From Isoetes taiwanensis (lineage: Eukaryota; Streptophyta; Lycopodiopsida; Isoetales; Isoetaceae), in the NCBI GenBank assembly GCA_021234155.1, contig JAJEKV010000047.1, positions 8,596,033-8,660,032 on the forward strand: a DNA stretch of 64,000 bases, in the 5' to 3' direction. The stretch's first letter is position 1. The number at the start of each line of letters is the position of its first letter. The notes beneath the pieces are model-generated. The model saw only the letters and a program-made list of their open reading frames with translations. It ran no database searches and had not been told where the DNA came from. Of this stretch, positions 21,278 through 64,000 are shown in pieces. A program made the position numbers and the translations under genes.

Positions 21278-21940
21278 TCTGTTTTTGCTAAAGTTGTCGC
21301 AACTTTATCTCCTTTGGTATTGTTGACAGTATTACATCAAGTTATCCAAATGCAACAAGCATGATTGCTAAATTGTTTATAGTTATTGGCTAGCATGCAG
21401 GGTTTCAATCATGCTGCCAGAAAAGATATGAAAGTTTGGGGAGGAGTCATAAATTTTGAGTAACTGGTAGGTTTGACTATATTATGTGATGTAACTTATA
21501 AACAGACAACTTGAACAGTCTAAAACCTCCTTTGTTGCTTTAAAATTGTGGGTGTCTCTTTACCTTTTTTTTTCCGTGGGTTGTCATTGCCATGACTTTG
21601 CTTACGTAATGAACGTAGATGCTTGGGAACTTTCGATTGCTATCAGTTTGCCTATGTAATCAACAGGACCTGTGAATTCCATCTATATGAAGCTGATTTG
21701 GCATGGATATAGTGGCAGTATGGTTGGCAGCTCTGCAATTTGGAGGCTGGAATTTTAAGGAATTAGCATCATCCTTTGATACCTCGTACGTAACTAGATA
21801 CAGCTTGTGCACAAACTTTCTTTTCTGCATAAAGAATTCAGTTTGTGCTTCAGTTTCTCTGTACGAACTTGTATAAAATGTCCACATACATGCTGAGTGA
21901 ACTATATGTAGGATGATTCGATAAGTTCAAAGTTATTCTT
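21278..21940. other. 3' flank of F-box gene A, duplicated in copy B
   Basis: No gene. The sequence is closely matched by 32850-33448, so the duplication includes the downstream flank. ACATA at 21884-21888 is the uninterrupted target site corresponding to the 12.5-kb transposon insertion in copy B. Confidence 0.7.
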
Positions 21941-26214: not shown

Positions 26215-29200
26215 TTTGTAAATATGCATGCCTCTTCCTAATCGCTCTTCCTAATGGCTCTTCCTAATGGCTCTTCACTCATTCCATCCCAAAAAAATCA
26301 CCGCTGTCCATACAGATCGACGGTGGGCGCATCACAGAATCGGACAACAGGAGCCGAAATTTGGTGCCCCCCACCTCACAATCCAACAATCACAAGGAGA
26401 TTCGCTTATGAGAGAAGTCCAGAGGGAGAATAGGTCAGTGCCATCCACCTCACAATCCAAGAACGAAAAACAGAACCACTATTTAAGAAAAAGGGGCCGG
26501 AAGTTGCAGATTTATCATAACACAGATGAGAATTTGCTGCGCAAAGCTTGTTCTTCACCTCCTGCTGAAAGCAACGTTTCTGAAAACATACAACTGATTC
26601 AAACATTACACAGATATTACACAGATGCTGAAATCTTTCTGCAGAAAGTGAAAACCTGATTCAAACATTAGAGAGATGTTCAAAGCAACATTTCTGATAA
26701 GATATCATTCAAACATTACACAGAAAATAACCCACAAACTACAAAACGTGATTCAAACATCTCCACAAACTACAAAACGTGATTCAAACATTACACAGAA
26801 AATAACCCAAGCTTCCTGACAATTGCACTGATTGCAAACAAACCAACATTTCTGATAACTTAGCATTTAAAAGGTTTCTGTTGAAAACTTGTTCTATAAG
26901 TCACTCATTGCTGAAACCTGACTTCTCACACAACCAACCAAAGACTTGTTCTCTAAGTCATCCACTGCCAAAACCTGACTTCTCACACAAGCAACCAAAG
27001 CTATAAAACTGTACAGAGAAGATAAAGTCTGATCATGCTCGCATAGTGCTAGGATGTGCCGCTGCAAGCTCATGAAGCTGCCGCAGCTTAGACAACAGCA
27101 TCGCTCGTACATGATTCACTTCACCTCTAAACACTCTTCTGTCCCGCACTGAAATCTCAATATCCGGATCATCTGCTGCAACTAGAGCTTCTTCTAGGAG
27201 CGTTGGTTAAAGCAACGGACAATGCATGCACGATTCGCCAAGTCTGCGATTTCATCCACTCGACATCAAAAAAAGGAGCAACAAAAGCAGGAACCACTCC
27301 TATAACACGCCTCTCCATAGGCTCAACATCCAACGCAATAAACGTAGAGAAGGGAGGAGGAGGAGTGGGATCCCTCTGTCTCCCCTCAGGCGCAACATCA
27401 ACATCCGCCCCTGCAACACAAGATTCACCTCATTAGCAACCTGCAACATGAAAATCAGCAAACAATTCAAAAGCTCATACTATCCAATATCAAACGCAGG
27501 GTCCGGCTCATCTAAAGGAATATAATCCTGGAAAAAGGGGCGGCTGCCATCTACAGGTGGAACGAAAGCGGGAGTCTCGTCACGGTACTCCTCATCTGGA
27601 GGATAATCCACTATATCTACTCCATCATCGTCATCATCACTCTCATTCTCATCCTCTTCTAGCATTGCGTCCAGCTTGTCTAGCTCTGCACATGCCAGAG
27701 CATCATCCCAAAATCTATGGCGCCTTTTACCCACTTTCTCTATGGGCTCTTCCCCAGGCGGCAATCCATAAATGACGCATCGCACGTCCTTGATAGAAGC
27801 ATTCCTCGGATCCAGCGTAAGCCTCCATGCAGCCTCTACTCTATAGTAACTGATTCTCGCTGAATTCCAAGGAAGGACCCATGCGCTAGACAAAACAAAC
27901 TTACCAGTACGTAACATCCGTGCAATCATGTAGCAGAGACTCGGAGTTCTCTGCCTTCGCCCGTGGTATAATACAAAGTGGCTCCCACGACTGAGCAAGT
28001 TCCTATTATCTAGAACCACGCAATGTTTTATCTCCCCAGCACCATACAATGCGTACAAGTTTTTACCACGTTCGAGCTGCTCGGCTGTAACCTCCTTCAT
28101 ATGATTCCTGTAATGTAATTTCCCAGCATCTTTCAGACAATAGCCAAGCATCCCTTCAAAACAATGTAAGCGCATGTCTTTCAACGCCTTACACATGATT
28201 ACTCCACCTGGCGGCCGAAAATTTGTCCAATCTAACGCCTGCCTCAAACGAATGTTTACAGCTGCTGGTGATGTTGCAGCAATTCGAAAAACACATTGCA
28301 GGTATAAATGGTCAAGCTCGGAACCACGCTCTACCGCCACCATCCCTGCAACGCAATCAGAATCCAAAAACCTGCACACCCTGACATAATGGTCTTCCAC
28401 TATGTCTGACCCACTGATAGTTACAGTGACGCTGACATCCAGCACACTGCTTTTAGCTTCTCTCTGCATGCTTTTTCTCATCTCTTTCTCCTTCCTCTCC
28501 ATAGATTTCTTCTCCTCTCTCTCCTTCTTCAGTCTCTCCCGCTCTTCCTCTCTTTTCTCTTTCCACCTGCTTCTTCTCCCTTTCCACCTGCTTGTTCTCT
28601 CTCTCTACCTGCTTGTGCTCCCTCTCCACCTGTTTAAATCTTTTCCTCTCCTCCCTCTCAAACTGCTTTCTCTTCTTCTCCGCATCCCTATCATTCTGCT
28701 CTCTAATTACAATGCCACTATCCTTCCTTGGCCTGCCTCTCTTCTTAGACTGCTCACATGCATTGCAGGCATCAGCTAGAAGAGCCAAATTATACTCACC
28801 TCTCTTTGGTGACAAATGGAGCTGCTCAGAAGGCACTTCAACAAAATTACTACGATGGAATATGGGATGGGAATCAAGGCAGAGGGACCTATGTTCAGGC
28901 ACAAAATTCATGGGCACAGCAGAGCCCATGCAATTCAATTCATGGGAACCAGTATCTAACCTCCCTCTAGCAGCTCCAGTGCTGCTGCTCTCAGGAGGCC
29001 TTTCCTCCTCATCTAGGCAACCGTGCATGCCCTGCCCTGATCTAATACTCCTAGCAATTCTCTTCAACATAGAAAGACTCTGGAACATACCTGTGTTGGC
29101 CTGCAATTCCACACCTGTGTTGGCCTCCACAGATCCTTGGCTGCTCGGCATGGCGCTCAGACACAAAAACAAACGCACAAGCAGACGATGGCAGTCTCTT

Positions 29201-29391
29201 CCTCCCGGTCCGGAACTGGTCGCAGCGCCCATTCCATCCTACATGTTCTTGCTATTTCAGGCCGTTGACATCCAGACGTCCATGCACAAATCCGACGGCC
29301 AACAACATTAACACCAACAAAAAAAAACCCCTGCCACACCACCAGTTCCCATTTTCCATCGGGGAACCTACTTTGTAAATATGCATGCCTC
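26215..29391 (-). mobile_element. Replitron-like transposon bounded by a 20-bp direct repeat
   Basis: TTTGTAAATATGCATGCCTC occurs exactly at 26215-26234 and again at 29372-29391. The 3137 bp between contain one minus-strand gene with Rep (HUH/Y1) motifs (27480-29232). Replitrons are a recently described class of Rep-only DNA transposons with short direct repeats at or near their ends, abundant in non-seed plants; the gene and the direct repeat both fit. Next to the left repeat (3' side of the gene) is a 13-bp repeat, TTCCTAATGGCTC, present about three times (26235-26273). No terminal inverted repeat or poly-A tail was seen. The copy probably sits in an intron: an exon-like piece ends at 29520. 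Confidence 0.65.
27480..29232 (-). pseudogene. Rep (HUH, single-tyrosine) endonuclease of a Replitron, frameshifted
   Basis: Two overlapping minus-strand frames, 28453-29232 and 27480-28502, form one ~580-residue protein once a one-base shift at about 28545-28565 is allowed: the Glu/Arg/Lys-rich coiled coil runs across both. Order: Ser/Gly-rich N terminus, an AT-hook-like KKRGRPRK (about 28724-28747), a charged coiled coil (KQVEREKKQVERE), then the Rep domain and a Glu/Asp-rich tail (LEEDENESDDDDDGVD). In the Rep domain, ELDHLYLQCVFRI (28290-28315) is the HUH motif with the second His read as Tyr (TAC at 28302-28304, one transition from CAC). MLGYCLKDAG carries the motif III YxxK, with the candidate catalytic Tyr at 28140-28142. 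Rep nicks and joins single-stranded ends. The frameshift and the lost His suggest an inactive copy. Confidence 0.65.
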
Positions 29392-32849: not shown

Positions 32850-33448
32850 TCTATTTTTGCTAAAGTTGTCGCAACTTTGTCTCCTTTGATATTATTGATA
32901 GTATTACATCAAGTTATCCAAATGCAACAAGCATGATTGCTATGTTGTTTATAGTTATTGGCTAGCATGCAGGGTTTCAATCATGCTGCCAGAAAAGATA
33001 TGAAAGTTTGGGGAGGAGTCATAAATTTTGAGTAATTGGTAGGTTTGACTGTATTATGTGATGAACAGGCAACTTGAACGAAGTCTAAAACCTCCTTTGT
33101 TGCTTTAAAATTGTGGGTGTCTCTTTACTTTTTTTTTTGCCTGGGTTGTCATTGCCATGACTTTGCTTACGTAATGAACGTCGATGCTTGGGAACTTTCG
33201 ATTGCTATCAGTTTGCCTATGTAATCAACAAGACTTGGGAATTTCTATATGAAGCTGATTTGGCATGGATATAGTGGCAGTATGGTTGGCGGCTCTGCAA
33301 TTTGCAGGCTGGAATTTTAAGAAATTAGCATCATCCTTTGATACCTCGTACGAAACTAGATACACCTTGTGCACAATAAACTTTCTTTTCTGAGAATTCA
33401 GTTTGTGCTTCAGTTTCTCTGTACGAACTTGTATAAAATGTCCACATA
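32850..33448. other. 3' flank of F-box copy B, cut by the large transposon
   Basis: Matches 21278-21888 downstream of copy A and ends at ACATA (33444-33448). Homology with copy A resumes at 45919 and continues to about 46065. Confidence 0.85.
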
Positions 33449-33485
33449 ATCATCATTCAATTAAATTGGGATTATGACTATTCCA

Positions 33486-34539
33486 AAATCGCGCCGTATA
33501 AGCCTTTTATTGACCATTATATTGAATTAACCACACTTTTGCACTGTGTTCATTTTCAGGCTAGGAAGATGCATTTTATGTTGAAATGCAAAGGCATTCA
33601 AATATTCGATGCAAAATGACCCATATTATGACAGAATATTGGCAATAGAAAAAGTAGGAAGTTGCTTATTAATTCGTACATTCACGGACGACAACGAAAT
33701 CTAAACATTGAAATTGTAGTGCTTTATTTAATAAATAACAAACCAAACAAGTTGCTACAAACAGATTTTTTCGTGGTTCAAATCGAAGGCGTGGCGCGAT
33801 TTTCTTGGCATAAATAACGATTATAATAGAACATAAACTTAAAAACTAATCCGGATTCATCGCCGACAGCGCTGCCGAAAGCGTCCCCGAGATCCCCGCG
33901 ATCATGAACAAACCATGCTCTGGATTCCATATAAGATGGATTACAACATCAAAGGGATCATGATAGAAGTGTACGGGATTCATAGCAATGACATCAAGCC
34001 AGTCCACGAAGTTCTATTTCTAGCTCGCGGCACTGCGCAGAGGTCCCGATGGTTCATCTTGGGTAATAGAATGTGCCATAATAACAAGCGTATATGAGAC
34101 CGGCTTCGATGGTTTGCCAATTTCATGCATACCTATTTATACACACCTAAATTATTGACGGTATATACATACAAATTATTGCAAGTATAGCAAACCATAC
34201 ACATAATATAAAAACAAATACGCATAAAGAACCAATAATGCTTTGATATAAGAACACAATATATATTCAAAACCTTTTCGTAAAGTATATTTCATATTCA
34301 AAACTTTTTGAAAGTGTATTTCAGTGATACATATATATCAAAAAGTTCCCTTTCTAGAACGATTTTCTCAAGGTCCCATCAATTTCCCGTCCGATCAAGA
34401 TCGGGTATAGTGTTTGTATCTCTTCAACCGTTTTTCCCGGCTATTTCATGCAAGACACTAATAAAACAAGCAGGAAGTCATCTTTGTCAAAATCTTGAGG
34501 ATGATAGGATGGCGGATTCAATGACCGTGATTGAAGCAA
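33486..34539. other. Left sub-terminal region of the transposon
   Basis: Two half-sites of the element's palindrome occur (AAATCGCGCC at 33486-33495 and GGCGCGATTTT at 33793-33803). No convincing exon. Frames on both strands near 33915-34100 are short and unrecognised. Confidence 0.4.
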
Positions 34540-34944
34540 CACTTTAGAGCGCCATCATCCACAATGATCATGCCTTCCTTATCCTCAACACCTGGGGCAT
34601 CCATCATGTTGCGCAAGCATTTCACAAATATCTTTTACCCGCTTCGGTTCTTTAGGGTTTGTGAATGAAGCACATTTGCTTTGATCCCGGATGGGCCTTC
34701 AATCTCTATTTAGCTCGGGCACTACTTTCAAAACATCTGTGATATTTCTATGCTCCATAGATGACCAAATTGCAAACTAAAACGTGTGAAGGCCTGGTCC
34801 AACATCTCCTTCGATAAGGGCTGGTAAACATATTTGGTACATGTCTCAAATGGTTGTTGTGCATACCATGACTTTTCAAACGTTGCTTTAGGTAGCACGC
34901 CATTCAAATCAAAGACCAGTACTTTTGGGGAAGCCAAATCATTT
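34540..34944 (-). pseudogene. HAD / FCP1-like phosphatase fragment in the transposon
   Basis: After a CTTATAG acceptor the minus strand reads NDLASPKVLVFDLNGVLPKA from 34944. DLNGVL is at 34893-34910. It continues KEMLDQAFTRFSLQFGHLWS and SMEHRNITDVLKVVPELNRD, a stop, then, after frame changes, MIIVDDGALKC at about 34545-34585. The order LVFDLNGVL, LWSSM..., IIVDD matches plant NIF/FCP1-like HAD phosphatases: motif I with D-x-N, motif II WS(S/T), and the final DD. The D-x-N form differs from the DxDx(T/V) of active FCP1. Stops show decay. It lies downstream, in the same direction, of the methyltransferase-like exon, across an intron holding two palindromes (34991-35083), so it may be the last part of the same gene. 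Confidence 0.5.
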
Positions 34945-34990
34945 CTATAAGGAGAACAATAACGTATGAGAACAATGAAATGGAAAACGA

Positions 34991-35083
34991 AAACGCGCCA
35001 GGCGCGATTTCATGAATGATGCATGTCAACATAATTTAAAAATATGATCTCTGGGAAACTCTAAATCGCGCCAGCCGCGATTT
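34991..35083. repeat. Two copies of the transposon palindrome (intron)
   Basis: AACGCGCCAGGCGCGATTT at about 34992-35010 and AATCGCGCCAGCCGCGATTT at about 35064-35083. Both lie between the donor at 35144 and the acceptor at 34945. Confidence 0.85.
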
Positions 35084-35143
35084 CTATATGCTTGTAGTTT
35101 GTAAAATGCATGGATATCAAAAAAAGGAACATTGTTACGATAC

Positions 35144-37127
35144 CTTTCTTCTTCTTCATTCCCCGTGGTGTCTTCTTCCGTTGCATCCTTATTCTGAGTT
35201 GTCTCCGGTCTGATAGAAGCACCAACCACATCAGTTGAGATCTGTACAGTGTGAACTATGCTTGATAGTTCATTACTCTTTACGCTAACCTGGCTAGTGT
35301 TTTCAGATTTGGAGTCTGCTTCATCATCATTATTGTTATTATCATCATCCTTGTTATCTTCATCCTGTTCTATATTTTCAGGGCCAAGGATGTTCACAGG
35401 GATGTCGATAGGTACTTGGTGATCTGGCTGCTCTTCGGTTTCATCCATGATGTTGTGGCCAACGAATAGCTTTCTCATATTCTCCCGTTCCTTAAGCAAA
35501 TCGGCAGGTATTTCGGCCTTAGAGCTAGAAGCTTTGTTTTTTGCACTGCCGATTGGTCCCCTAGGTGCTTCCTCTAGTACTTTCTCAAAGAAGAGGTCCA
35601 AGAAATTTTTGGTGAGATCATCAGAGATGACGCTCTGACATTTCCTTGCTAACTTCAAAGCTTCTCTACCGATGTAACCTCCAACGTGAAGTTCCCAGCA
35701 AGTTGTTCCCAATGGACAAAATGCTTCAATGAGATACTGGGAAAGGTCCATAGAGAACCCGTTCTTGTTTAGCTTACCCTTATGTGAAGTTAGGAGCTCA
35801 TACTTAATGTGGCCCACAAGAATTGGGTCGTCCTCGTTTTCATCCTCTTCTTCCTCTTCTTCCTCTAACTCTTCCACGACCTTGACACCCTTCCCTTGTC
35901 TTCTTGCTCCGGATAGAAGACGTTTTCGCGATTATCGTTCATCTAGCGATAATACTTGCCATGCTAGTTTGTCTCCATCTGGTTTTCCTTGAGCCTTTCA
36001 TATTCCTTATCATCCATCATGGCTATCATAATTATAAGCACATGAGAAATTTTACTTTTGTCAGGCAAGTCATCGTCCCTGTTTTCATCTATGAGGATGG
36101 CACGTGGGATGACTTTCACGCATTCTAAGTCATTTGCAGCAGGTTAGAGCATATGCATAGGACATGTTGGAGGGACATATAGTGACAATTGTGTAGTTCA
36201 TCTCCGTGGTGAAACCATTGCATATGTTGAAGAACGTATTATAGTCATCAAGTGACCATCTGGTGCCTCGGCTATCAAGGGACGAAGAGTGTGATATCAT
36301 GGGGACTGCACCCACTTCCTTGGCAAGGCACACTTGAAACCAAAGTGGACACTTTCGATAAAAAAGTGGATTAAGTCTCCGGGTCCGCTTCACCATCGCG
36401 ACTTTTCGTTTCAAGTCGGATGCAACTTTAGTGTGAATCCCATCGATCTTTGCAACGTTCTTCAACCTGGCGCTTGACAAAGTCCTTGGACCAAAATACA
36501 TACTTCTTTAGGTCGAGTTGGAGGCGTTATACTTTTGCATGAGTCCTAACTCAGACAACGACCACTCTCCGTAAGCCTTTGTAATTCCTCACCAAGCGCC
36601 TTCTTGAGCACTCTAATATTCTTATTTCGCCGCATGCATCTTCAAATGATTCCGAGCCTTTGTTGCCGAGGGTTTTCTTGTAAAGAATTTCCTTTTCGAT
36701 TAACCTATCAAAACCGAGATCAGCTCTTGATCCTCCAATCCCTCTGAGCCTTCCTCATCTCTGTTATATGTATATAAAAAATTGATGTGCCAACAGGGGG
36801 AAATCTTCCTTGTGAATCTGGCAACTTCTTCTCGACGTAGGCATCCCAGAATTCATTCCATTTCTCCCATACTGGATCTGAAGCAAATACTATCTTGCAG
36901 GCATCCTTGGGCACAGTTGGTTCCTCGGAAGCATCACCCTTTTCATCTCCTTTTTTTTTTCTTTGATCTGGTGCTCTTGGTTTTGTCCCGTATTATCGCG
37001 TCGACTAAGTGTCCTCTCCAAAGAACTTGAATTCGCCGCTTTTGACCGGCCCCGCATGCTGGTTGGCATTGGCTTCCCATATTCAATCCACTAGTTCCGA
37101 GCATGCCGAAGTTGCTCTATATAGGGA
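35144..37127 (-). pseudogene. Methyltransferase-like gene segment of the transposon (multi-exon, decayed)
   Basis: Exon-like pieces on minus run from an acceptor at 37127 (TTGCAG|TCCC) through KDACKIVFASDPVWEKWNEF (36720-36900) and TRWSLDDYNTFFNICNGFTT followed by YTIVTICPSNMSYAYAL (36130-36290). An acidic EELEEEEEEEDENEDD block follows, then YLIEAFCPLGTTCWELHVGG, YIGREALKLARKCQSVISDD (35600-35730), a low-complexity Asp/Asn tail and a donor at 35144. The last motif follows the pattern LIExFSPPGxxVLDxFxGxGxxGxAALxLGRxCxxxExD of DNA adenine methyltransferases, and TIVTICPSNMSYAYAL could be the strand after DPPY. No DPPY itself was found. If right, the enzyme would modify DNA, or once did. Several frameshifts and stops. 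Confidence 0.35.
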
Positions 37128-37186
37128 CTGCAAGGAGTAACCTTGTTAGCTTCATAATCGTGAATAAAATAAATCCTTCTAGTTTA

Positions 37187-37580
37187 AAATCACGCCTGGC
37201 GTGATTTCATATTAGAAAGCAAATCGCGCCAGGCGCGATTTGCCTACTCTAAAGAGAAAACGCTTCCTGGATTGGTAGCCGTTTCTCGTCAAACAAGTAA
37301 ATCACGCCTGGCGCGATTTCATATTAGAATGCAAATCGCGTCACGCGAGAATTGCCTAGCCTGAGGAGACTTGGCTATTAGACGGATAGCCTTTTCTCCT
37401 GAGGGTAGGCAAATCCCGTGGGGCGCGAAACATTCGATATGAAATCGCTACGAGGCCGATTTGCTTGTTTGAGGAGAAACGACTACCATTCCGTGAAGCT
37501 TTTGTTTTTTAGTGGGCAAATCGCTACCGGCGCTGGCGGTTTTCTATTATGAAATCGCTACCGGGCGCTGATTTGTAAAA
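37187..37580. repeat. Palindrome cluster in an intron of the transposon gene
   Basis: Good copies: AATCACGCCTGGCGTGATT (about 37188-37206), AATCGCGCCAGGCGCGATT (37222-37240, perfect) and AATCACGCCTGGCGCGATT (37300-37318). Decayed copies start near 37333, 37411, 37442, 37517 and 37551. The pairs come in ~112-bp units (37187 and 37299) that share TTCATATTAGAA and can fold into larger hairpins. The cluster lies between the donor at 37613 and the acceptor at 37127. Confidence 0.85.
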
Positions 37581-37612
37581 AACAAAAACGAAACCTAAGG
37601 GAAGAGAATTAC

Positions 37613-38120
37613 CTTTTGTATAAGAATGTTTTTCCCATGTCATTCAGGAGTGCGCTTATTTCGCTAGCTCGGCAGGTGTTGTTGAGCCGCCAGAACCGCA
37701 GGTTTACGGCTGAATCTGAGGTTATAGAACAACTGATGCCCAGTATGATGTGCCTTCCTGATCAGAACCTTCTGGGCCTCTATTGAATGCTGGCCATCTA
37801 TTATCATAAAATGTATGTCAGGATTCTCAATGAAGTTAGATCGACTTGCTCCACATGATTACCTTCCTCGTTCTGGTATCGTACGGCACTACATCTGCAG
37901 GCATTGGCACTTGCCCTGGATTTTCGATCATGCTGTTCACTATCTCCAAGGAGTGCTGCTTGTCATACCTTCTGCTGATATAAATGGCTTTAGTGGACCT
38001 GAAAAGCCTATCCACGTGGACTGGATGGGTGAAGTTTAGGCCCAGTGGATACTTGTCAGCATATTTTTTGAGCTTGCTCATTGCCTCCAACTGCCTGGCC
38101 TTGTCATCGTCACTTGTAAG
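37613..38120 (-). pseudogene. ParB-like (DGQH) domain gene segment of the transposon
   Basis: The minus strand reads LEAMSKLKKYADKYPLGLNF, THPVHVDRLFRSTKAIYISR, RYDKQHSLEIVNSMIENPGQ and VPMPADVVPYD. After a frameshift near 37835 it continues NFIENPDIHFMIIDGQHSIE and AQKVLIRKAHHTGHQLF to a donor (CAAAAG|GTAATT) at 37613. DGQHS is at 37784-37798. The layout (a V-x-V-x-x-L segment, R/K turn, helix with V-xx-M/S-I-xx-xG, then a hydrophobic strand into DGQHRxEA) is that of ParB/Srx-type 'DGQHR' domains, which bind DNA or a nucleotide cofactor. In prokaryotic mobile elements ParB-like domains are often joined to DNA methyltransferases, which agrees with the neighbouring segment. The frameshift marks this copy as decayed. 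Confidence 0.5.
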
Positions 38121-38403
38121 GCCTGGCGTGCCGCTTCGTGGTTTCCGCGCCTTTAGAGCTTTCTTCTTCCCTTATCCTTCCTTTGCACGTAGTAGACACC
38201 GCCCGAGGGGCCTCGTGCTAATGGCTCGTCGAATACCGTGTAAGCCCTCGCATATTCTTTTAGGAGTCAATGGCTCGCCAACCGCCCGACCAAATTTGAA
38301 GAGGTTATCGGCCATGTCGTCGATCTTAATGCGCCTCTTTAAAAGAGCTAAAACGTGATCGATTGATCTTCTTTAGGCTCTTCTTATGTTTTGGCCCACT
38401 TCA

Positions 38404-38734
38404 ACTAGTACGTAACGAGAAAGAATCGTCTTGTACTGCGCATGTAATAAGAATTCCCCGCTTCTTCATTTGATCGGTCTCTCTTACCCTTGACATGAAT
38501 ATGAGGTCTGTCTTCCCACCAGTTTTGAATATCTCCACATACCATTTCGACCCCTCTATAAGATCTTCTTCGGACATGGAGGTTCCACTTGAGCCTTTAT
38601 TATTCCGGATGTATCTTCTAACGATCAATACATTTGCAGTGTCAGAAACAATAACATCTTCATCGTCCTTTGCACTACGGGGTGTAGAGGTCTCGCTTTG
38701 CTTGTTCCTCCCTCTTTTGCTTGTCTTTTGTGAT
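38404..38734 (-). pseudogene. Exon upstream of the ParB-like segment
   Basis: After a TTTCACAG acceptor (38735-38736) the minus strand is open: QKTSKRGRNKQSETSTPRSA, KDDEDVIVSDTANVLIVRRY, EDLIEGSKWYVEIFKTGGKT and DLIFMSRVRETDQMKKRGIL, ending with the stop near 38403. The basic start and conserved look suggest a real exon, but no family is recognised. The sequence between here and 38120 (MADNLFKFGRAVGEPLTPK, then AYTVFDEPLARGPSGGVYYV in another frame) links it to the ParB-like part across two or three frameshifts. Confidence 0.4.
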
Positions 38735-39301
38735 CTGTGAAATTACAAGCACATGGGTTAATCTTTTAATGCTAAAATATATGCTAAGTCGAGAAACATA
38801 TGCAACAAAAAAAGCTTTGGCGACTTTGAAAAGAATAAAGAGCAAGTTCATTTACTTAATTGGAGCTAACAAAAATGCGCTTGGTAGCGATTTGAAAAAG
38901 AATCTGAGCAGGTTCATTTACTTAAAATGTTCGGGACATAACTAACTATAAAAATACAACTTAAATTGTCGAATCTTCATCTCAAAATATAGAAACTAAT
39001 GTAATGCCTTATTCAACAAATGGCTTTGACACAAATAACTATAAACACCACAACTTAAAGAGTTGAATCTTCATCGAGGAGGACGAGAACTAACTATAAA
39101 AAACACAACTACCTACTGAATCTTTGTTTAGCCACACATTAAGCATTTATTTGCATACATTTTTGGGACATATGAACTCAAATATTAGAGGACACATGCT
39201 TCTTATCGGAGAATTACTCTATTGTCTGAGAAAAACATCCTAAAAACCTAACAAAAAAAGGGACACAGAAATCAATTACAGAACAAAAACAGATCAATTA
39301 C

Positions 39302-39440
39302 CTGAGGCGCTTGCTGGATTTGTGCTTTCTGCTTGTTCAGCAAGCTCCAGGCTTGGGATTTATGCTTTGGCCTGTCGCCCACCTCTACCTGCGCCTCGGC
39401 GCGATCGAGATCCTCTAGGCGCCCATAGAAGGCTGCAAGT
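39302..39440 (-). pseudogene. Exon near the 5' end of the minus-strand transposon gene
   Basis: The minus strand reads LSALAAFYGRLEDLDRAEAQ, VEVGDRPKHKSQAWSLLNKQ and KAQIQQAPQ, then a donor CAG|GTAATT at 39302. It is helical and charged. No start codon or acceptor is certain; it could begin at about 39440-39470. Confidence 0.35.
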
Positions 39441-39658
39441 GCGGATAATATGAGACTGGGGTTTTGGTTTAAACTTATATGTATGCGTTCATAATCTAGG
39501 CCATCAGATTTACAACCCTAAATTCAAATTCGCGTCCTTTTCAATTTATACCGCCTTAATTAACCGCCCGTCCCGCTCATTTACAAATTTAAATTATGTT
39601 TTTCTTTTTAGTGCAATTTCAAGATAACAATTAATTATTAATTTCAAGAAACGCATAT

Positions 39659-40162
39659 ATGGCAATCTACTACCACCTAATCGGCCACCTACTATCAGAG
39701 CGCCCAAGATCATTCCTACTATCAGAGCGCCCAAGAACAATCGACTATCACAGCGCCCAAGATCCGTATACAACGCCTTCAATCCCATTCGATCGAGCCG
39801 CCTTCAATCCCATTCGATGTCTGCTGAACTATGGTGAGTGTGATTCCATTCCGAATGCATTCTCTTGTTCTCTATTTTTCGTCCTCTATTTTTTCCAATG
39901 CATTCTGGTTCTTTATCAGTGTCGGAGAAGAATGCTATCTTTTAACAGCAAACTTGAAGCGTAGAAGTAGGCTTATGTAAAATCAAGATCTGAATCAAGT
40001 TCTATGTGTCATGGTGTTCCTCTTGGAAACAGTTTACGTAAGATTTCCATTATAAACCGCAATTATGAAGATGAGGCTCTTCCACGAAGACACCGGTGGC
40101 TTATACTGATTAGTGAAAGCGTGGGCACATTTGTAGCATGGCCAAAAGAACGTCCGAAAAAG
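39659..40162 (+). pseudogene. DUF8039-like exon pair, plus strand of the transposon
   Basis: An ATG frame from 39659 reaches CTATG|GTGAGTG at about 39833. It contains three copies of CTATCAGAGCGCCCAAGA (39690, 39719, 39746). After an acceptor (GAAGTAG, about 39970) the frame reads SSSMCHGVPLGNSLRKISII, then RHRWLILISESVGTFVAWPK and ERPKKV, to a GTATGT donor at about 40161. 'HGVPLGN..R(V/I)S(V/I)' followed by 'VG(T/S)FVAWP' is the pattern of a plant transposon-associated domain (DUF8039 type). The transposase gene at 42752 also has an IVAWPR motif. Function unknown. The exons are short, and continuation downstream was not found. Confidence 0.4.
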
Positions 40163-40238
40163 GTATGTATATTACGATATTAAAAAAAAAAATGAATATA
40201 TCATAATATCTGGCGTGATGTTGTGAATTTTTGTATTC

Positions 40239-40339
40239 TTTGATGCTCTTTTTTGATCCATATCAACCCATGAAACTACACATTAATGAGAATGTGTAGT
40301 TTCTTCAGGGGTTGGTCATGTTTGGCTGAGGGCATCAAA
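40239..40339 (+). repeat. 101-nt imperfect hairpin, miRNA-precursor-like
   Basis: TTTGATGC (40239-40246) pairs with GCATCAAA (40332-40339), CAACCC with GGGGTTG, and GAAACTACACATT with AATGTGTAGTTTC (13 bp perfect) around a 6-nt loop. About 45-bp arms with scattered mismatches resemble a plant MIRNA foldback. No known mature miRNA is recognised. Confidence 0.5.
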
Positions 40340-40411
40340 GGATTCAATGTTTTCGACATTGCATATAAAAAAATATAATAAAATAAACGTGACATAAAAG
40401 TTTAAGCTGCA

Positions 40412-40433
40412 AAATTGCGCCAGGCGCGAGATT
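40412..40433. repeat. Transposon palindrome copy
   Basis: AATTGCGCCAGGCGCGAGATT, one inserted base relative to the consensus. It lies downstream of the 123-aa frame. Confidence 0.8.
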
Positions 40434-40501
40434 GTATTTATATTCAAAAGATATATATGTACATTTTTCCTTTTGTGAAAATGCGCCTGCTCTACATATC
40501 T

Positions 40502-40873
40502 CTACAAAATGTCGCAAAGGCCCACTTCATCGGCCCAATACCGAGTAAAATGCCACCTGGACCACTGTGATATGACATCATCCTCTTCTTCCCTGCGAAT
40601 GTCGAGTCTCCAAATCAGAGTGTTGTATCGATCCTTGATACTGTAAATCAAATCCTCATACTTATTTGTGGGCATGAGCCTTACTAAGAGCATGAGGAGC
40701 CTTATATGTCCAGTGATGCGATGATAGCATTCCCATGGCCCCTGATACAGACTCTCAACTGGCTTGTCCAACTCTCTGTGAATGTTTTGAACAGCACAAT
40801 CAAGTAGTATCTTGTACAGGGTCCAGCGTTGATGGTCGTCTAGAGGAAGTATATTTGAACTAGAAGCAGCCAT
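40502..40873 (-). CDS. Conserved-looking 123-aa protein of the transposon
   Basis: An intact ATG-to-stop frame: MAASSSNILPLDDHQRWTLY, KILLDCAVQNIHRELDKPVE, SLYQGPWECYHRITGHIRLL, MLLVRLMPTNKYEDLIYSIK, DRYNTLIWRLDIRREEEDDV and ISQWSRWHFTRYWADEVGLC, then DIL. It is mostly helical, has no signal peptide and no recognised domain. Palindrome copies flank it on both sides (40412 and 40981-41036), so they could act in its promoter and 3' region. Apart from the host genes it is the cleanest frame in this element. An acceptor in its 5' region cannot be excluded, so it could also be an exon of a longer gene. Confidence 0.5.
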   Translation of the reverse strand: MAASSSNILPLDDHQRWTLYKILLDCAVQNIHRELDKPVESLYQGPWECYHRITGHIRLLMLLVRLMPTNKYEDLIYSIKDRYNTLIWRLDIRREEEDDVISQWSRWHFTRYWADEVGLCDIL

Positions 40874-40980
40874 GTGTAATGCACTAGAACGAGAGAAATT
40901 AACTAATTAGCAAATGATATTCCTATCCCCAGAAAATGATTCTACGTTTACTATAGTGTTCTTTTTACAGATCTACTGCA

Positions 40981-41036
40981 CACGCGCCTGGCGCGATTTA
41001 TATAAAGCCAAACTAGAAATGCGCCAAGCGCGATTT
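40981..41036. repeat. Two transposon palindrome copies upstream of the 123-aa gene
   Basis: CACGCGCCTGGCGCGATTT (40981-40999) and AATGCGCCAAGCGCGATTT (41018-41036), 37 bp apart, about 110-160 bp upstream of the minus-strand ATG at 40873. Confidence 0.85.
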
Positions 41037-42740
41037 CGCCATGGGAATAGATAGAGCAAATCTAAGAGCAAATAGAGCAGAATAAGAACTCATAGAGCGT
41101 TATTTAGTTTAGTTCATTATTTACTTCATTGTTTTAGTTCATTGTTTAGAACTCCTTGTTTAGTTCATTATTTAGTTCAGTGTTTAGAACTCCTTATTTA
41201 GTTCATTATTTAGAGCAGATAGAAGAAGAGCTAATGAAATAGAATAAGAGCAGATACAGCAAAATCATATAAGCAAGATCGTAGAGCAGATAGATCATAG
41301 AGCAGATAGATCATAGATCATAGAGCATAGAGCATATCATATAGGCAAGATCATAGAGCAAGAGCAGAGAGCAAGATCATATAAGCAATAGAACATGTTT
41401 ATTAGCAATAGATCTATATATGAAGGTGCTAGGGCAGTATAGGACTGATGCATCTAAAAGTCTAAGCCAGTAAGCACTCCCCTTCATTAAGCCTGAAGCT
41501 CATATAATAGATAAAGAACAGATAAAGCAGATAGAACAGAAAATTCAAATACTAGAATAAAAACAAGAATAAGATAACAGACTTTAAGTAAAGAACAGGA
41601 AATACTAACCTAGTTGATTTGAGCCGAGAAGAAGCCAATAGCCGATGATTTGAGCCTTAAGAAGCCGAGAAGAAGCAATAGCAGATAATTTAGAAACCGA
41701 GAAGCCGAGAACCTTTAACACAAAACCAAAAACCCAGAAAACTTAGTTATTCCAAGCCGAAGCCAAAAAACCAGAGAGATTGTAGAGAGCCGAAACCTTT
41801 AGCCGAATGCTTTGCAGAAAAGCCTTTGAGCCGAAAACCCAAAAGCAGAAAGCTCGAAAAGCTCGAAACCGCAGATAAAAACAGATTGAAGCAGATTGAA
41901 GCAGATAGAAGCCGAGAAGCAGATTGAAGCCGAGAAAGATAGAAGATAAGATAATATTATCTCCTCCTTAGGTCATGCAGCAAATAGATTGATGCCGAGA
42001 AGCAGATAGAAGCCCAGAAAGCCGAGAAAGATAGATTGAAGATAGATTGATGATGCCGAGAAGCAGCTAGAAGCCGAGAAAGCTGAGAAATTGGAAGGCA
42101 AAATTGGAAGCAGAAGCGCCTGGAATGCCTGGAATTGGAAGCAGAAGCGCTAATGTTCGAAAGTGTGAGAGAAAAGTTTGAAAAGGAATGCTAACTTGAA
42201 ATAATAACTGCTTTTAAAATTTCGTACCGCGCCATTATAACTTCCGCGAAAATTTATTACAAGGGTTAATTGTTTTAAAGACAATTGTTTTAATGGTTAA
42301 TTGTTTTAAGGACAATTGTTTTAAGGGTTATTAAGTTTAAAAGTTTAAAAGTTATTGAGTTATAAGTTTATAAAATAGTTTTAAGTTAATAGTTAAGTTA
42401 TAAGTTTAAAAGTTCATGAATTAGACTTCTAACCTTAAAACTTTTAACCTACAATAACTTTCCAACCTTAAATTTTCTAACCTATAATAAACTTCTTAAC
42501 CTTAAAACTGCTAACCTATAATAACCTTAAAAGTTGTTTCTAAGGTTATTATAGGATACAAGTTTGAAGGTTATAAGTAGAGGGTTTTATTTATATATAG
42601 TGTGGAGGAAAATAACTTGGGGAATCCCATTATATAAATAGAATGATCAAATAGAATAAGACATATGAGGCTTTCATTTATGAACATGTTAGTTAGAGGT
42701 TATTTGGATATGCTAACTTACTATATGTTTTTATGCATTC
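41037..42740. repeat. Low-complexity region between divergent transposon genes
   Basis: Short words repeat: AGTTCATTATTTAG (41100-41220), ATAGAGCAGATAGA (41220-41400), GCCGAGAAGCAGATTGAA (41640-42090), TAAAAGTTATTGAGT and AACCTTAAAACTTTTAACC (42290-42560). There is no coding exon. It separates minus-strand genes from the plus-strand transposase gene and probably contains both promoters. Confidence 0.6.
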
Positions 42741-42751
42741 TAGGTCAATGG

Positions 42752-45702
42752 CATGCAAAATGCTAAAAACAAAGCCCCCAATGATGCTGATCAAGGCAAG
42801 GAAAAATCCCCAACTAATGAACATGATGGCCAAGGAAAGGAAAATACCTCAAATGATGTTGATGATGGCAAAGGAAAGGAAAAGACTCCAAATGATGTTG
42901 ATGATGGCAAAGGAAAAGAAAAGACCTCAAATGAAAAGGATGATGCCAAAGGAAAGGAAATTGTACTTTATACTCGGGTCGATAAAAACAAAAAGGTCAA
43001 GATCCGCATGCATGCAGCAGAGGCGATGGGAGAAGGGATTATTGTTCTAGGAGATCCTATCAATGCATTGAATGATGAAAGATTAGGGGAGGACGGGTTA
43101 GGTGTGGCAATCTCAAAATTATATGACAATTGAAAGGAAAAGGGTTCAGGCAAACAAGAATGCCTAGCTTGTGTGAAGCAACTAGAGGTTCCAACTATTG
43201 TTGCATGGCCTAGGGGCAGATTCAACCCGGAGGGAACTACACGTTTCCTATAGATGTAGAACCATTGTCAATAATGTTCACACAAAGTGTAGCAAGAGGC
43301 CACTTCCAACTTTCAAACATTATCCCACCAAAAGATGCAAGTCGATTATGATTGTTCTCCGAAGCCCCGATGCAAGTTAGAGGAAGTGAATGTTGTTGGG
43401 CCTCCGTATTAGAATGTTCACAATAGAGGAGATGGTGGTAGCAAGAGCTACATATCAGGAACATAAGTGTGATAGCAGGAGGAATTTCATGTACACCATA
43501 TTTGGCTATGCAATTGGGATGAAAGATCAAAGAAGAAAAGATTCCCATTGAATGGAAAGTGGATATGTTCAAAAGCATGGATGGCTATACATGGAATTCC
43601 AACATCTTCTTGGCACAACTTGGTAAAAAAAAGAGACATGAAAATGGTAGTAAAATTGCATTGCATGGGAACACCGGCACGTAAAGGCCTACCTCAAGAA
43701 CTATAGCTGCAAAGGAAATATTTGAAAGATATGTGGATTTCAAATGCGAGAAAACATGCCACATAAGAGTAAGAAGGATGAACAGGGGTAGAGTTATTGT
43801 TGAAAAGAGATTGCCATCCCATTGTACCCGAGAAGAGCATATTAGAGGAAATAAATGCATTGCTTCGGGAACTTGGAGTGGCCTCTATATCCCCCGGTTT
43901 TAGTAGGCTATGGAATAAGCATTTCAAGCATGTGACCATAGCAACTTCAAACAACTTTGCCAAGTGCAATTTATGTGCTAAGCTGAAGGAGACACTAGAT
44001 AAGGCTGTGCAACCAAGTCTAAGGGCAAAGATAAGGGAACATATGAAGGACCATATGACGGATCAACTATCATGTAGATCAACTTATTGGATGTGGAGGA
44101 CCTTATACGCAATGGAATCTAATAACTATCTATGTATTATACATGATAAAATGGACCAATGTAAGACTTGTCTTCCACAATTCAAGTACATTCCTAAGTC
44201 ATGTGGAAGATCATACCCTTTGCAGATTTCAATGGATGGGGCAATATTGCATGGGCAGTCTCTGGACATATTATGGCCATTTTAGGTTTAGAGTTGTGGA
44301 GTGATGGTCCAGATTTTCACATTGGGAGTATCATGAGGTGTTTAAGAAACTATGAGAAGGGTTACAATGGTCACCTACAGGATCCTACTGACTAGCCGGG
44401 CACTACATAGTGCATTGTTGGATGGAACCCCTAATAGTATTGAAAAGTTTAGCAAGGCAAGGTTTAGAAGGAATGGACCTAATGAACATGTTGGAGCTTG
44501 AGATCTGCCTGTAAAGCTCCTCTTGCAACTAGATAATTGTGCTGGTCAAAATAAGAACAGTGGATGTTTTCTTTCCTATCCTACTTAACATTTGTGGGTA
44601 TTTTTTTTGAAAGAGTCAATTTGGGGTTCCTAATGCCCGGACATACTCATGAGGATGTGGATGCATTGTTTGGAAAATATAGTCATGTATTGAGGCAACA
44701 GACGGTTACCAACTTTTCCAGGGCTATTGGAAATATTTCATGGATGTACAAATCCATCTCCTATAGGATCTATCATAGAAGAAGTGCCTGATTGGAAGAG
44801 TTTTGTGGATGGTTATGCTCGACATGGAAGGTCATTCTAGACCTCTTCAATTCACTTTTGGGTGAGAGAAGGGATTCCAATCATGCAATGGAAAATGAGA
44901 CCTTGAGGAGGAGAAGTGGAGAGGTGGGGCAGAAATTTGGCGAGGGATGCAAATGGCAAGCCTATGATACCTCTGGTCAACCAAAAGCTCTAAAACCAAC
45001 CGAAGAAGTCAAGCAATTGGGATTGACTAAGGATGGCATCAATGACTACATCAAGCATTGGCAAACTAATTCGGATGAGACTAATCGTGCATTGATAGAT
45101 TATTGGAAGAAGGTGATCAACTTGTTGGATGAGGTAGACACATCCTGAGAAAAGAGCTGAAAGAAGGGTGGTTCCCTAAAAGTAAGTGGAAAACATTAGG
45201 GTAGGCCGGCGAAGATGATGGTACCATTAGTAGCATTGTGAAGGCATATGCTCCTCCTCAATCGATAAACACTATGTTGGTCCTAAGAAGGATAGGCCAA
45301 AATATCTAGGCATGGATTGTTATGAACCTTCTCTTCGGCGTGGAGTGCCACCAATTTGTAGTAGTAAAACCAAGCAGATCTAGAGACCTATCCGGTGTGG
45401 TTGGGATACACTATCTCGGATATTTGCAAAGAAGAAGGTGATGTTAACTTCAATAAGGTGCTTGGAATGGTGGTGTCCAAAGTACATCGGTTGAGTAATG
45501 TCACCGATAAAGAAAAGATATTGATTGTTGGACAAAGAGGTGGAGGAGAAATCCTAGCGATCCTGATCTTTGGCTAGACATTGAAACCGTATTGTACTCA
45601 TGGACTCCAAAAACTATTCCTAGTAAAACAGCGAGAGTTACAATACCTCAGGATGTAAGGAATAAGGTTCTCATATCCTTGGGGATGCTGGTGGAAAAAT
45701 GA
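42752..45702 (+). pseudogene. DUF7869-like transposase gene of the 12.5-kb transposon (decayed)
   Basis: In order: a Lys/Asp-rich leader with a 13-15-residue repeat (NDVDDGKGKEKTP; 42800-42960); EGIIVLGDPINALNDERLGE; VPTIVAWPR; RNFMYTIFGYA; a HGI...HGN stretch (43570-43680); PEKSILEEINALLRELGVAS (43826); KCNLCAKLKETLDKAVQPSL; CIIHDKMDQCKTCLPQFKYI; ISMDGAILHGQ; LLLQLDNCAGQNKNSG (44518-44566); VNLGFLMPGHTHEDVDALFG (44610-44670); and a C-terminal end VTIPQDVRNKVLISLGMLVE with a stop at 45702. The HGN, DxMDQxKxxLP, QLDNCxxxNKN and PGHTHEDVDxxF motifs are those of DUF7869 proteins, widespread transposon-like genes with a probable RNase H-like core. At least six frameshifts or stops. The copy at 61003-63980 is a sister with different breaks. 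Confidence 0.75.
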
Positions 45703-45918
45703 AAAACATACTATGTATCAATCACAGTTAATAAAAGTTGTGTAAAACTTGAGTTTCATGATATATGATTTTGTAATTTGAAGTTAAGGTGTGAATTTAT
45801 ATTAAGGTGTGTGATTATATGTTAACATATTGTGACTTTTATCAAGTTACTAAAAAACTTGCAATATGAAATTTGTCCCAAAATCAAGACATAATCCCAA
45901 TTTAATTGAATGATGGTT

Positions 45919-46065
45919 ACATACATGCTGAGTGAACTATACATAGGATGATTCGATAATTTCAAAGTTATTCTTTTAAGCCTCTACACTCTCAGAGGCC
46001 TACTTGCTAGAGTTTCAATTTGGCAACTAATTTGTGCTCTAGTTTGACGATGTTCCCTAGCAGAA
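45919..46065 (-). pseudogene. 3' end of the coiled-coil gene, duplicated copy
   Basis: Resumes F-box copy B's flank after the transposon and matches 21884-22030. The minus strand encodes AREHRQTRAQISCQIETLAS as in copy A. A base loss in AGTAGGCC against AGTAAGGCC shifts the last codons. Homology ends at about 46065 (TTCCCTAGC). Confidence 0.7.
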
Positions 46066-54637: not shown

Positions 54638-54659
54638 TTGTTATCGAATGGTCTGGCCC

Positions 54660-56524: not shown

Positions 56525-56530
56525 CACATA

Positions 56531-60569: not shown

Positions 60570-60779
60570 ATGGCTCCTAGAAGAAGTAATGAGGCTGCTG
60601 AGCAAGTACATACTGAATCTCAAGAAAATACAGGAATGTCTGCTGCAGGACTTGGATCAACTAGTCAAAGCACTGCAGGTATGCAATATTGTGAGCTGAA
60701 TATGCCTATTTCTCCTCCTATCTTCGACTCTAGTGTCAATGCTAACAATTTCCTAAAGACTTTTGAGGAATACTACTTA
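60570..60779 (+). pseudogene. Ty3/gypsy-like gag start, cut by a transposon
   Basis: ATG at 60570: MAPRRSNEAAEQVHTESQEN, a Ser/Gly stretch, then MPISPPIFDSSVNANNFLKT and FEEYYL. A basic MAPRR start and the motif PPxFDGSxxxxxFLxxFExYY are typical of Ty3/gypsy gag proteins. The reading is broken at 60780 by the right end of a DUF7869-type transposon. The rest of the retroelement would lie beyond the window. Confidence 0.5.
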
Positions 60780-63700
60780 AACCATCATTCAATTAAATTG
60801 GGATTATGTCTTGATTTTGGGACAAATTTCATATTGCAAGTTTTTTAGTAACTTGATAAAAGTCACAAGATGTTAACATATAATCACACACCTTAATATA
60901 AATTCACACCTTAACTTCAAATTACAAAATCATATATCATGGAACTCAAGTAGTACACAACTTTTATTAACTGTAGAAAAGATACATAGTAACTGTTTTT
61001 CATTTTTCCACTAGCATCCCCAAGGATATGAGAACCTTATTCCTTACATCCTGAGGTATTGTAACTCTCGCTGTTTTACTAGGAATAGTTTTTGGAGTCC
61101 ACGAGTACAATACGGTTTCAATGTCTAGCCAAAGATCAAGATCACTAGGATTTCTCCTCCACCTCTTTGTCCAACAATCTGAATATCTTTCTTTATCGGT
61201 GACATTACTCAACCGATGTAATTGGACACCACCATTCCACGCCGCACCTTATTGAAGTTAACATCACCTTCTTCTTTGCAAATATCCAGAGATAGTGTAT
61301 CCCAACCACACTTTGGATAGGTCTCTAGATCTCTTGGTTTTACTACTACAAATTGGTGGCACTCCACGTCAAGAGAAGGTTCATAACAATCCATGCCTAG
61401 ATATTTTGGCCTATCCTTCTTAGGACCAACATAGTGTTTATCGATTGAGGAGGAGCATATGCCTTCACAATGCTACTAATGGTACCATCATCTTTCACAA
61501 ACACCACTAATGTTTTCCACTTATTTTAGGGGAACCACCCTTCTTTTTAGCTCTTCTGAGGAGGTGTCTACCTCATCCAACAAGTTGATCACCTTCTTCC
61601 AATAATCTATCAATGCACAATTAGTCTCATCTGAATTAGTTTGCCAATGCTTGATGTAGTCATTGATGCCATCCTTAGTCAATCCCAATTGCTTGACTTC
61701 TTCAGTTGGTTTTAGAGCTTTTGGTTGATCGGGGAGGTATCATAGGCTTGCCATTTGCATCCCTGTGCCAAATTTCTGCCCCACCTCTCCACTTCTCCTC
61801 TGAAGGTCTCATTTTCCATTGCATGATTGGAATCCCTTCTCTCACCCAAAAAGTGAATTGAAGAGGTCTAGAATGACCTTCCATGTCGAGAGCATAACCA
61901 TCCACAAAACTCTTCCAATCAGGCACTTCTTCTATGATAGATCCTATAGGAGATGGATTTGTACATCCATGAAATATTTCCAATAGCCTGGGAAAGTTGG
62001 TAACTGTCTGCTGTCTCAATACATGACTATATTTTCCAAACAATGCATCCACATCCTCATGAGTATGTCCGGGCATTAGAAACCCCAAATTGACTCTTTC
62101 AAAAATACCCACAATTTGTTAAGTAGGATAGGAAAGAAAACATCCACTGTTCTTATTTTGACCAAAGACAATTATCTAGTTGCAAGAAGAGCTTTTCGGC
62201 AGATCTCGAGGTTTAGCACGAGATGTTGAAGCTCCAACATGTTCATTAGGTCCATTCCTCCTAAACCTTGCCTTGCTAAACTTTTCAATACTATTAGGGG
62301 TTCCATCCAACAATGCACTATGTAGTGCCTGGCTAGCTGTAGGATCCTGTAGGTGACCATTGTAACCCTTCTCATAGTTTCTTAAACACCTCATGATACT
62401 CCCAATGTGAAAATCAGGACCATCACTCCACAACTCTAAACTGAAATGGCCATAATAGGTCTGAGACTGACCATGCAATATTGCCCCAGTCATTGAAATC
62501 TGCAAAGGGTATGATCTTCCACATGACTTAGGAATGTACTTGAATTGTGGAAGACAAGTCTTCTGTTGGTCCATTTTATCATGTATAATACATAGATAGT
62601 TATTAGGTTCCATTGCAGATAAGGTCCTCCACATCCAATAAGTTGATCTACATGATAGTTGATCTGTCATATGGTCCTTCATATGTTCCCTTATCTTTGC
62701 CCTTAGACTTGGTTGCACTGTCTTATCTAGTGTCTCCTTCAAACTTAGCACATAAATTGCACTTGGCAAAGTTGTTTGAAGTTGCTATGGTCACATGCTT
62801 GAAATGCTTATTCCATAGCCTACTAAAACTGGGCTAGGATATAGAGGCCACTCCAAGTTTCCGAAGCAATGCATTTATTTCCTCTAATATGCTCTTACGG
62901 GTACAATGGGATGGCAATCTCTTTTCAACAATAACTCTACCCCTGTTCATCCTTCTTACTCTTATATGGCATGTTTTTACGCATTGAAATCCACATATCT
63001 TTCAAATATTTCCTTTGGTACTATAGTTCTTGAGGTAGGCCTTACCGGGCCGGTGTTCCCATGCAATGCAATTTTACTACCATTTTCATGTCTCTTTTGC
63101 GGTTTGTGCCAAGAAGAGGTTGGAATTCCATGTATAGCCATCCATGCTTTTGAACATATCCACTTTCCATTCAATGGGAATCTTTTCTTCTTTGATCTTT
63201 CATCCTGAATTGCATAGCCAAATATGGTGTACATGAAATTCCTCCTGCTATCACACTTATGTTCCTGATATGTAGCTCTTGCTACCACCATCTCCTCTAT
63301 TGTGAACATTCTAATACAGGAGGCCCAACAACATTCACTTCCTCTAACCTTCATCGGGGCTTCGGAGAACAATCATAATCGACTTGCATCTTTTGGTGGG
63401 ATAATGTTTGAAAGTTGGAAGTGGCCTCTTGCTACACTGTGTGAACATTATTGACAATGGTTCTACATCTATAGGAAACATGTAGTTCCCCTCCAGTTTA
63501 ATACTGTCCCTAGGCCATGCAACAATAGTTGGAACCTCTAGTTGCTTCACACAAGCAAGGCAATCTTGTTTGCCTGAACCCTTTTCCTTCCAATTGTCAT
63601 ATAATTTTGAGATTGCCACACCTAACCTGTCCTCCCCTAATCTTTCATCATTCACTACATTGATAGGATCTGCTAGAACAATAATCCCTTCTCCCATCTT

Positions 63701-64000
63701 TGCCCTACATTTGCATGCATGCATGGGATCTTGACCTTTTGTTTTCCAATCGACCCGAAGTATAAAGTACAATTTCCTTTCCTTTGGCATCATCCTTTTC
63801 ATTTGAGGTCTTTTCCTTTCCTTTGCCATCATCAACATCATTTGGAGTCTTTTCCTTTCCTTTGCCATCATCAACATCATTTGAGGTATTTTCCTTTCCT
63901 TGGCCATCATGTTCATTAGTTGGGGATTTTTCCTTGCCTTGATCAGCATCATTAGGGGCTTTTTTTTTAGCATTTTGCATGCCATTGACCTAGAATGCAT
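60780..64000 (-). mobile_element. Second copy of the 12.5-kb transposon family, opposite orientation (partial)
   Basis: It begins AACCATCATTCAATTAAATT, identical to the right end of the element at 33449-45918 read inward, and matches it inverted to the window end (60780-64000 against 42733-45918). The possible target duplication is ACTTA (60775-60779). Only the transposase-gene end is visible; the cargo end lies outside. Confidence 0.85.
61003..63980 (-). pseudogene. DUF7869-like transposase gene, second copy (decayed)
   Basis: Same order as 42752-45702: Lys/Asp-rich repeat leader (63980-63770), LGEDRLGVAISKLYDNWKEK (this copy has TGG where the first has a stop), VPTIVAWPRDSIKLEGNYMF, RNFMYTIFGYAIQDERSKKK, GKWICSKAWMAIHGIPTSSW, ALHGNTGPVRPTSRT (63005-63050), LCIIHDKMDQQKTCLPQFKY, ISMTGAILHGQ (Asp of the first copy is Thr), NLGFLMPGHTHEDVDALFGK (62030-62090), and the end DIETVLYSWTPKTIPSKTAR to the stop at about 61003. 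Frameshifts fall at places partly different from the first copy, so comparing the two would give the ancestral gene structure. Confidence 0.75.

Follow-up and report, generated by a model that had tools for sequence, protein, structure and literature searches.

A high-copy two-gene DNA transposon, probably Sola-like, with a recurrent 21-bp palindrome in the lycophyte Isoetes taiwanensis

Introduction

Sola transposons of plants have been described as elements with 4-bp target-site duplications, a DDD transposase and variable terminal inverted repeats (TIRs), some of them being long; they mostly measure 2 to 9 kb, are present in moss and metazoans and seem to be uncommon in flowering plants (PMC10741241). 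Sola1-1_Ec32 from Ectocarpus, a Sola-1 element of 21.5 kb, encodes on the opposite strand an accessory protein of 1104 amino acids with ParB-like and DNA methyltransferase domains, and similar proteins have been cited for green and red algae (PMC12477816). In this study we examined a stretch of 64,000 nucleotides from Isoetes taiwanensis (contig JAJEKV010000047.1), hereafter the window, which contains a DNA transposon with a DUF7869 gene (gene A) and, on the other strand, a second large gene (gene B). We consider it likely that the element is a Sola-like cut-and-paste transposon whose maintained parts are its ends, gene A, gene B and a set of palindromes.

Like Sola1-1_Ec32, the element of I. 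taiwanensis is a large DNA transposon whose accessory gene and transposase gene lie on opposite strands; unlike in Sola1-1_Ec32, ParB and methyltransferase domains are not recognisable and a NIF domain is present. The element of I. taiwanensis also contains palindromes. By description, it shares the 4-bp duplications with the plant Sola elements, which are of the DDD type, sometimes long and with variable TIRs (PMC10741241), but it differs from a typical one in being a high-copy, 12.5-kb lycophyte family with a second conserved gene. Thus, the original prediction, made from the letters of the window, that no named plant superfamily fits the element was too strong, since 4-bp duplications are a feature of Sola (PMC10741241) and an opposite-strand accessory gene is a feature of Sola1-1_Ec32 (PMC12477816). 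New here are the 21-bp palindrome and the high-copy two-gene element; in the open-licence literature that we searched, no listed title described the element, and DUF7869 was not mentioned.

Results

Ends, target site and family size

The inverted ends of the element form a 33-nt pair, 94% complementary and spaced by 12.4 kb, with a longest unbroken match of 26 bases, as predicted. TIRs of 32 bp are common to many copies, as expected of a cut-and-paste DNA transposon. In nine insertions both ends could be read (the window element, a second copy named C2, a derivative at locus L040 and 6 of 10 copies fetched from elsewhere in the genome), and all nine are flanked by exact 4-bp duplications, namely ACAT in the window, TAAG in C2, TAAA in the L040 derivative and TAAT, GTAA, TAAA, ATCT, CTTG and TGGT in the six fetched copies, each of which starts with AACCATCATTCAATTAAATTGGGATTATG. 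The fixed length of the duplication and the existence of an empty site are likewise typical of cut-and-paste transposons. The empty paralogous site is present, as had been noticed, and its two flanks show identities of 93.6% over 747 columns and 95.1% over 144 columns with those of the insertion, but its target is of 4 bp and does not extend from 21884 to 21888. Similarly, the duplication had been read as the 5-bp ACATA and the start of the element as 33449, which we correct to ACAT and 33448 (Table 1), since other copies begin with AACC and all duplications are of 4 bp. The fifth matching base is due to chance, because the left end of the window copy has mutated from AACC to AATC, and corresponds to the first A of the element itself. 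We also considered longer ends flanked by a 2-bp duplication, CA, which the other copies contradict.

The left 500 bp of the element, used as a query against the genome (1,658,258,908 bases in 1110 contigs), gave 1021 first-look candidates, and the best 40, which were scored, all matched: the window is one of them, and the remaining 39 show 91 to 93% identity; the unscored candidates do not count as confirmed copies. The copies used below are that of the window and 10 of the 40 scored ones, each fetched as a pair of neighbouring stretches and picked by left-end identity, so that those lacking gene B are under-represented. The right end was unreadable in L009, L013, L015 and L025, which therefore gave no duplication, and several fetched copies contain nested insertions. 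Six of the fetched copies have an almost complete gene A, and L009 and L013 have part of it; L015 and L025 end before reaching it. Neither of the two outcomes named as refuting the original prediction was observed: the ends recur elsewhere with 4-bp duplications, and each of the 10 fetched copies holds gene B sequence, so that the cargo is not private to the window insertion. These results identify a large, high-copy family of about 12-kb DNA transposons in I. taiwanensis, with past mobility. C2, located 15 kb from the window element, is chimeric between two subfamilies: its transposase half is 94% identical to the window element, and much of its gene B half about 75%.

Gene A

The DUF7869-like transposase gene of the original prediction is present on the plus strand, with a Pfam DUF7869 match at an E value of 4e-38 (the query was a mosaic of two copies). 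In the protein database we found 43 homologues, including two of the liverwort Riccia sorocarpa (30 to 34% identity) and one of the sea cucumber Holothuria leucospilota (26%), which, compared as proteins only, have both the domain (PF25273) and the acidic signature of gene A. In the alignment of 36 of the 43 homologues (P0031 and P0038 to P0043 were left out), with invariance judged where a residue is present and positions numbered as in P0002, we observed the acidic residues D350 and D353 (both 35/35), D485 (34/34) and E524 (33/33), together with H521 (32/32), H523 (33/33) and D525 and D527 (each 32/33). The signature can be written as D...D...(HxHE), with an H-x-H-E-D-x-D cluster, where the third catalytic residue is a candidate only. 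Since DDE/D transposases are expected to show such an invariant acidic signature, gene A is likely to be the DDE/D transposase of the element.

In the tree of DUF7869 proteins, the family joins P0001, a JGI-sourced protein from a 2,165-bp contig, with support of 100/100, and a second, distant DUF7869 piece, from L013, is placed next to it with support of 84/96, this second join being flagged by the program as long-branched. Among viral contigs, 47 stretches fit a search pattern, none of them being a gene A relative. Within one subfamily, the synonymous and nonsynonymous variants of gene A are in the numbers of 46:101 among singletons and 24:25 among shared variants.

Two further observations concern the same gene. 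In L013 (joined coordinates 10955 to 13553), an abrupt switch occurs in mid-gene to another DUF7869 gene, about 34% identical, for which a nested insertion or a recombination is possible. Near the start of gene A in the window (42782 to 42976), a 39-bp tandem repeat encodes a K/E/D-rich repeat.

Genes B and C

The exons of gene B agree between copies; the splice sites were read by eye and the exon model covers exon 2 onward. The last exon, predicted as FCP1-like, stands as a minus-strand Pfam NIF domain (PF03031), with an E value of 2e-17 in copy L013 and 63.8 bits versus a curated cut-off of 21.8. The catalytic motif of NIF/FCP1 proteins is DxDxT/V; in both subfamilies gene B has DLNGV, where the first Asp is kept and the second is Asn. 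This domain lies opposite to the DUF7869 gene, in support of the proposal that the DNA transposon has several genes and carries cargo on its other strand.

The labels given to the two upstream exons fared differently. For exons 2 and 3, no significant Pfam or PHROG family was found (best matches, RFC1 with an E value of 0.076 and, among PHROGs, a family of unknown function with 0.12), the searches for the ParB reading of exon 2 in Pfam and PHROGs having been taken to E 10. Among solved structures, the best match was an unrelated one at E 0.8 for the ParB reading and a fucosyltransferase at E 0.16 for the methyltransferase reading. With hhalign, a six-row ParB profile compared with 4 of the 6 rows of alignment A2 scored 9.35, inside the range of 20 column shuffles (7.2 to 16.6) and without a positive control, and the methyltransferase comparison scored 17.12, inside 30 shuffles (mean, 15.2; top, 20.5), where one held-out methyltransferase gave 99.96%. 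The structure model, with a predicted local distance difference test (pLDDT) score of 37, did not support the ParB reading. Because the alignments are shallow and the ParB test lacked a positive control, we regard both readings, which failed these tests, as lowered rather than excluded.

The ratio of nonsynonymous to synonymous divergence (dN/dS) of gene B versus C2 was 0.06 to 0.10 in exon 2 (10/10 copies used, L015 having been dropped for coverage) and 0.08 to 0.12 in the middle exon (11/11), both rough since dS is near saturation, and 0.12 to 0.18 in the NIF exon (11/11). Between the subfamilies, dS ranged from 0.6 to 2.1, and dN from 0.12 to 0.16 in exon 2 and the middle exon. Gene B is held by purifying selection in the lineage of the element, and ratios of 0.06 to 0.18 between two subfamilies indicate a maintained component, not dead cargo. 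Within one subfamily, the synonymous and nonsynonymous variants, summed over the three exons, were 180:379 among singletons and 77:96 among shared variants.

A small open reading frame, gene C, showed no significant family match; its selection is not clear (dN/dS of about 0.2 to 1.6 in the pairs printed, at low divergence), and we do not claim it to be functional.

The 21-bp palindrome

Complete copies contain 9 to 15 sites of a 21-bp palindrome, AAATCGCGCCWGGCGCGATTT, with a central A/T and a conserved dyad. In the window, 7 sites were found at up to 3 mismatches, versus 0.00 expected from shuffles. In other copies, sites also lie close to the left end and directly upstream of exon 2. When up to 4 mismatches were allowed, we counted 120 sites in 120,305 bp of element sequence from 11 copies, and none either in 59,766 bp of flanking and nested DNA of the same loci or in the remaining 48,308 bp of the window, two controls that share 600 bp and together amount to 108 kb. 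With C2 included, the sites are 132 in 12 copies, none of them falling in an exon block mapped for gene A or gene B. Genome-wide, 613 exact sites occur, compared with none for the reversed-pattern control, and the loci around the exact sites, examined for the first 15 listed of the 613 (several from one copy), all belong to this family, 14 matching full-length copies at 85 to 91% and the fifteenth being the L040 derivative. As far as examined, the palindrome is therefore so far restricted to this transposon family. The introns of C2 align weakly to those of other copies, though above shuffles, and the palindromes occupy the same gene parts.

The L040 derivative (positions 630 to 2245 of the locus) is non-autonomous, 1,616 bp long, and its interior, which lacks gene B, has nothing in common with the full element but the ends and three palindromes. 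This one derivative suggests that the palindrome matters in cis. It is inserted in a host NIF/FCP1-like exon, within DxNGVL-type codons, that is, in the same type of domain that ends gene B. A reading in which L040 represented another, third family that possessed a NIF gene was discarded, as the junctions show the derivative inside the host exon.

Table 1. Positions of the transposon, its parts and related sites in the window
Feature	Position	Strand	Remarks
Unoccupied target ACAT, paralogous flank	21884..21887		Target present once
Left target-site duplication ACAT	33444..33447		Same 4 bp as 45919..45922
Whole element	33448..45918	+	12,471 bp; decayed copy, frame breaks in genes A and B
Left TIR	33448..33479	+	AACCATCATTCAATTAAATTGGGATTATGTCT in other copies; AATC... 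here, one near-tip mutation
Gene B, last exon, NIF/FCP1-like domain	34340..34940	-	Motif LVFDLNGVL; projection between copies; Pfam NIF
Palindromes, gene B intron 3	34990..35010, 35063..35083
Gene B, middle exon	35146..37090	-	Predicted as methyltransferase-like; projection; no significant family match
Palindromes, gene B intron 2	37187, 37221, 37299, 37333		4/4 at up to 4 mismatches, 3/4 at up to 3
Gene B, exon 2	37612..38735	-	Predicted as ParB-like; projection; no significant family match
Palindromes on both sides of gene C	40412, 40979, 41016 (40412..41036)
Gene C, small open reading frame	40502..40906	-	134 aa in window copy; matched in 8/10 fetched copies and C2
Gene A, DUF7869, transposase-like	42753..45702	+	Broken in window copy; start and stop placed by eye
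Right TIR	45887..45918	-
Right target-site duplication ACAT	45919..45922
C2, right half of second copy	60780..64000	-	Runs past the window into L029; duplication TAAG at 60776..60779 on this side

Discussion

The 4-bp duplication, found in nine of nine insertions as in Sola, and a layout like that of Sola1-1_Ec32 point to a Sola-like element, and on this analysis membership in Sola is probable. The alternative that DUF7869 transposons form a separate, unnamed superfamily, similar to Sola only in duplication and layout, appears rather unlikely. In its favour, the branches among the DUF7869 proteins are long, gene B is without relatives in the database searched, and the likeness to Sola is here one of duplication and layout, not of protein comparison. 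Against it, 4-bp duplications and an opposite-strand accessory gene have both been reported for Sola (PMC10741241, PMC12477816), and DUF7869 occurs in a liverwort and a sea cucumber, with Sola having been reported in moss and metazoans (PMC10741241).

It is possible to hypothesize that gene A cuts at the TIRs and joins the element to targets staggered by 4 bp, with gene B as a partner in transposition. The palindromes would be recognised by a dimeric DNA-binding protein encoded by the element, with gene B as the first candidate and genes A and C as alternatives, and the bound protein may pair, mark or regulate the DNA of the element. That gene B binds the palindromes is a tentative proposal. 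Several points weigh against this scheme. The palindromes sit in the gene B and gene C part and not around both ends, unlike simple subterminal sites of a transposase; the derivative that keeps them is a single case; and the pairing of gene B with the palindromes would follow from their co-residence alone. Moreover, no solved structure matches gene A by sequence, full-length gene B had no homologue at E 0.001 (5442 candidates), exon 2 had none at E 1 among the 8000 best candidates scored from the protein database, and dS is near 1.7 in exon 2 and the middle exon, close to saturation.

A more daring extension, which we judge improbable, is that the palindromes are a parS-like loading site from which gene B spreads, pairing or marking copies for the transposase, so that non-autonomous copies must keep the sites. 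As in ParB-parS partition systems, a palindromic site is repeated inside one mobile or replicating unit; unlike in those systems, the unit is a eukaryotic transposon, ParB homology is not recognisable in it and the site differs from parS. If true, a eukaryotic transposon would have its own partition-like or self-recognition system.

The palindromes could instead be RNA hairpins, or repeats grown by slippage and useless to the element, rather than protein sites. The intronic position of many of them, their variable number among complete copies (9 to 15) and a clustering that resembles slippage-grown repeats agree with such an origin, which we nevertheless find doubtful, given that the dyad is conserved, that the same gene parts hold palindromes in a subfamily with weakly aligning introns, that the derivative without gene B has kept them, and that not all sites are intronic, some lying around gene C and, in other copies, close to the left end.

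Comparable reservations apply to the hypothesis that gene B is a true ParB and DNA methyltransferase accessory, as in the algal Sola1, diverged past recognition. The strand layout is the same as in Sola1-1_Ec32 (PMC12477816), both motifs had been seen by eye in the original prediction, and a weak strand-helix pattern, modelled with low confidence, may be present in exon 2; set against the hhalign scores within shuffles for both domains, the lack of a significant Pfam or PHROG family and the pLDDT of 37, these points leave the hypothesis rather unlikely. A Pack-type origin, in which gene B would have been captured from the host and would travel as a mere passenger, is very improbable. The NIF domain is indeed eukaryotic, and L040 shows that the genome contains a NIF-like host gene, but dN/dS is 0.06 to 0.18 at dS of 0.6 to 2.1 between subfamilies and gene B sequence is found in 10 of 10 fetched copies.

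Returning to the Sola-like transposon with maintained parts, a single enzyme together with its ends accounts for many cut-and-paste transposons. In this family, a second protein maintained by selection and a palindrome that is family-restricted, as far as examined, and kept by a derivative make the role of accessory proteins in giant Sola-type elements directly testable with few parts, and a high-copy two-gene element is added to the little-described lycophyte mobilome.

Outside the element, the window contains long minus-strand open reading frames at 27480 to 29238, with a K/R/E-rich stretch and a 374-amino-acid frame, to which no protein was assigned. At 54621 to 58320, endonuclease-like and reverse-transcriptase-like frames, recognised by eye, probably belong to a long interspersed nuclear element.

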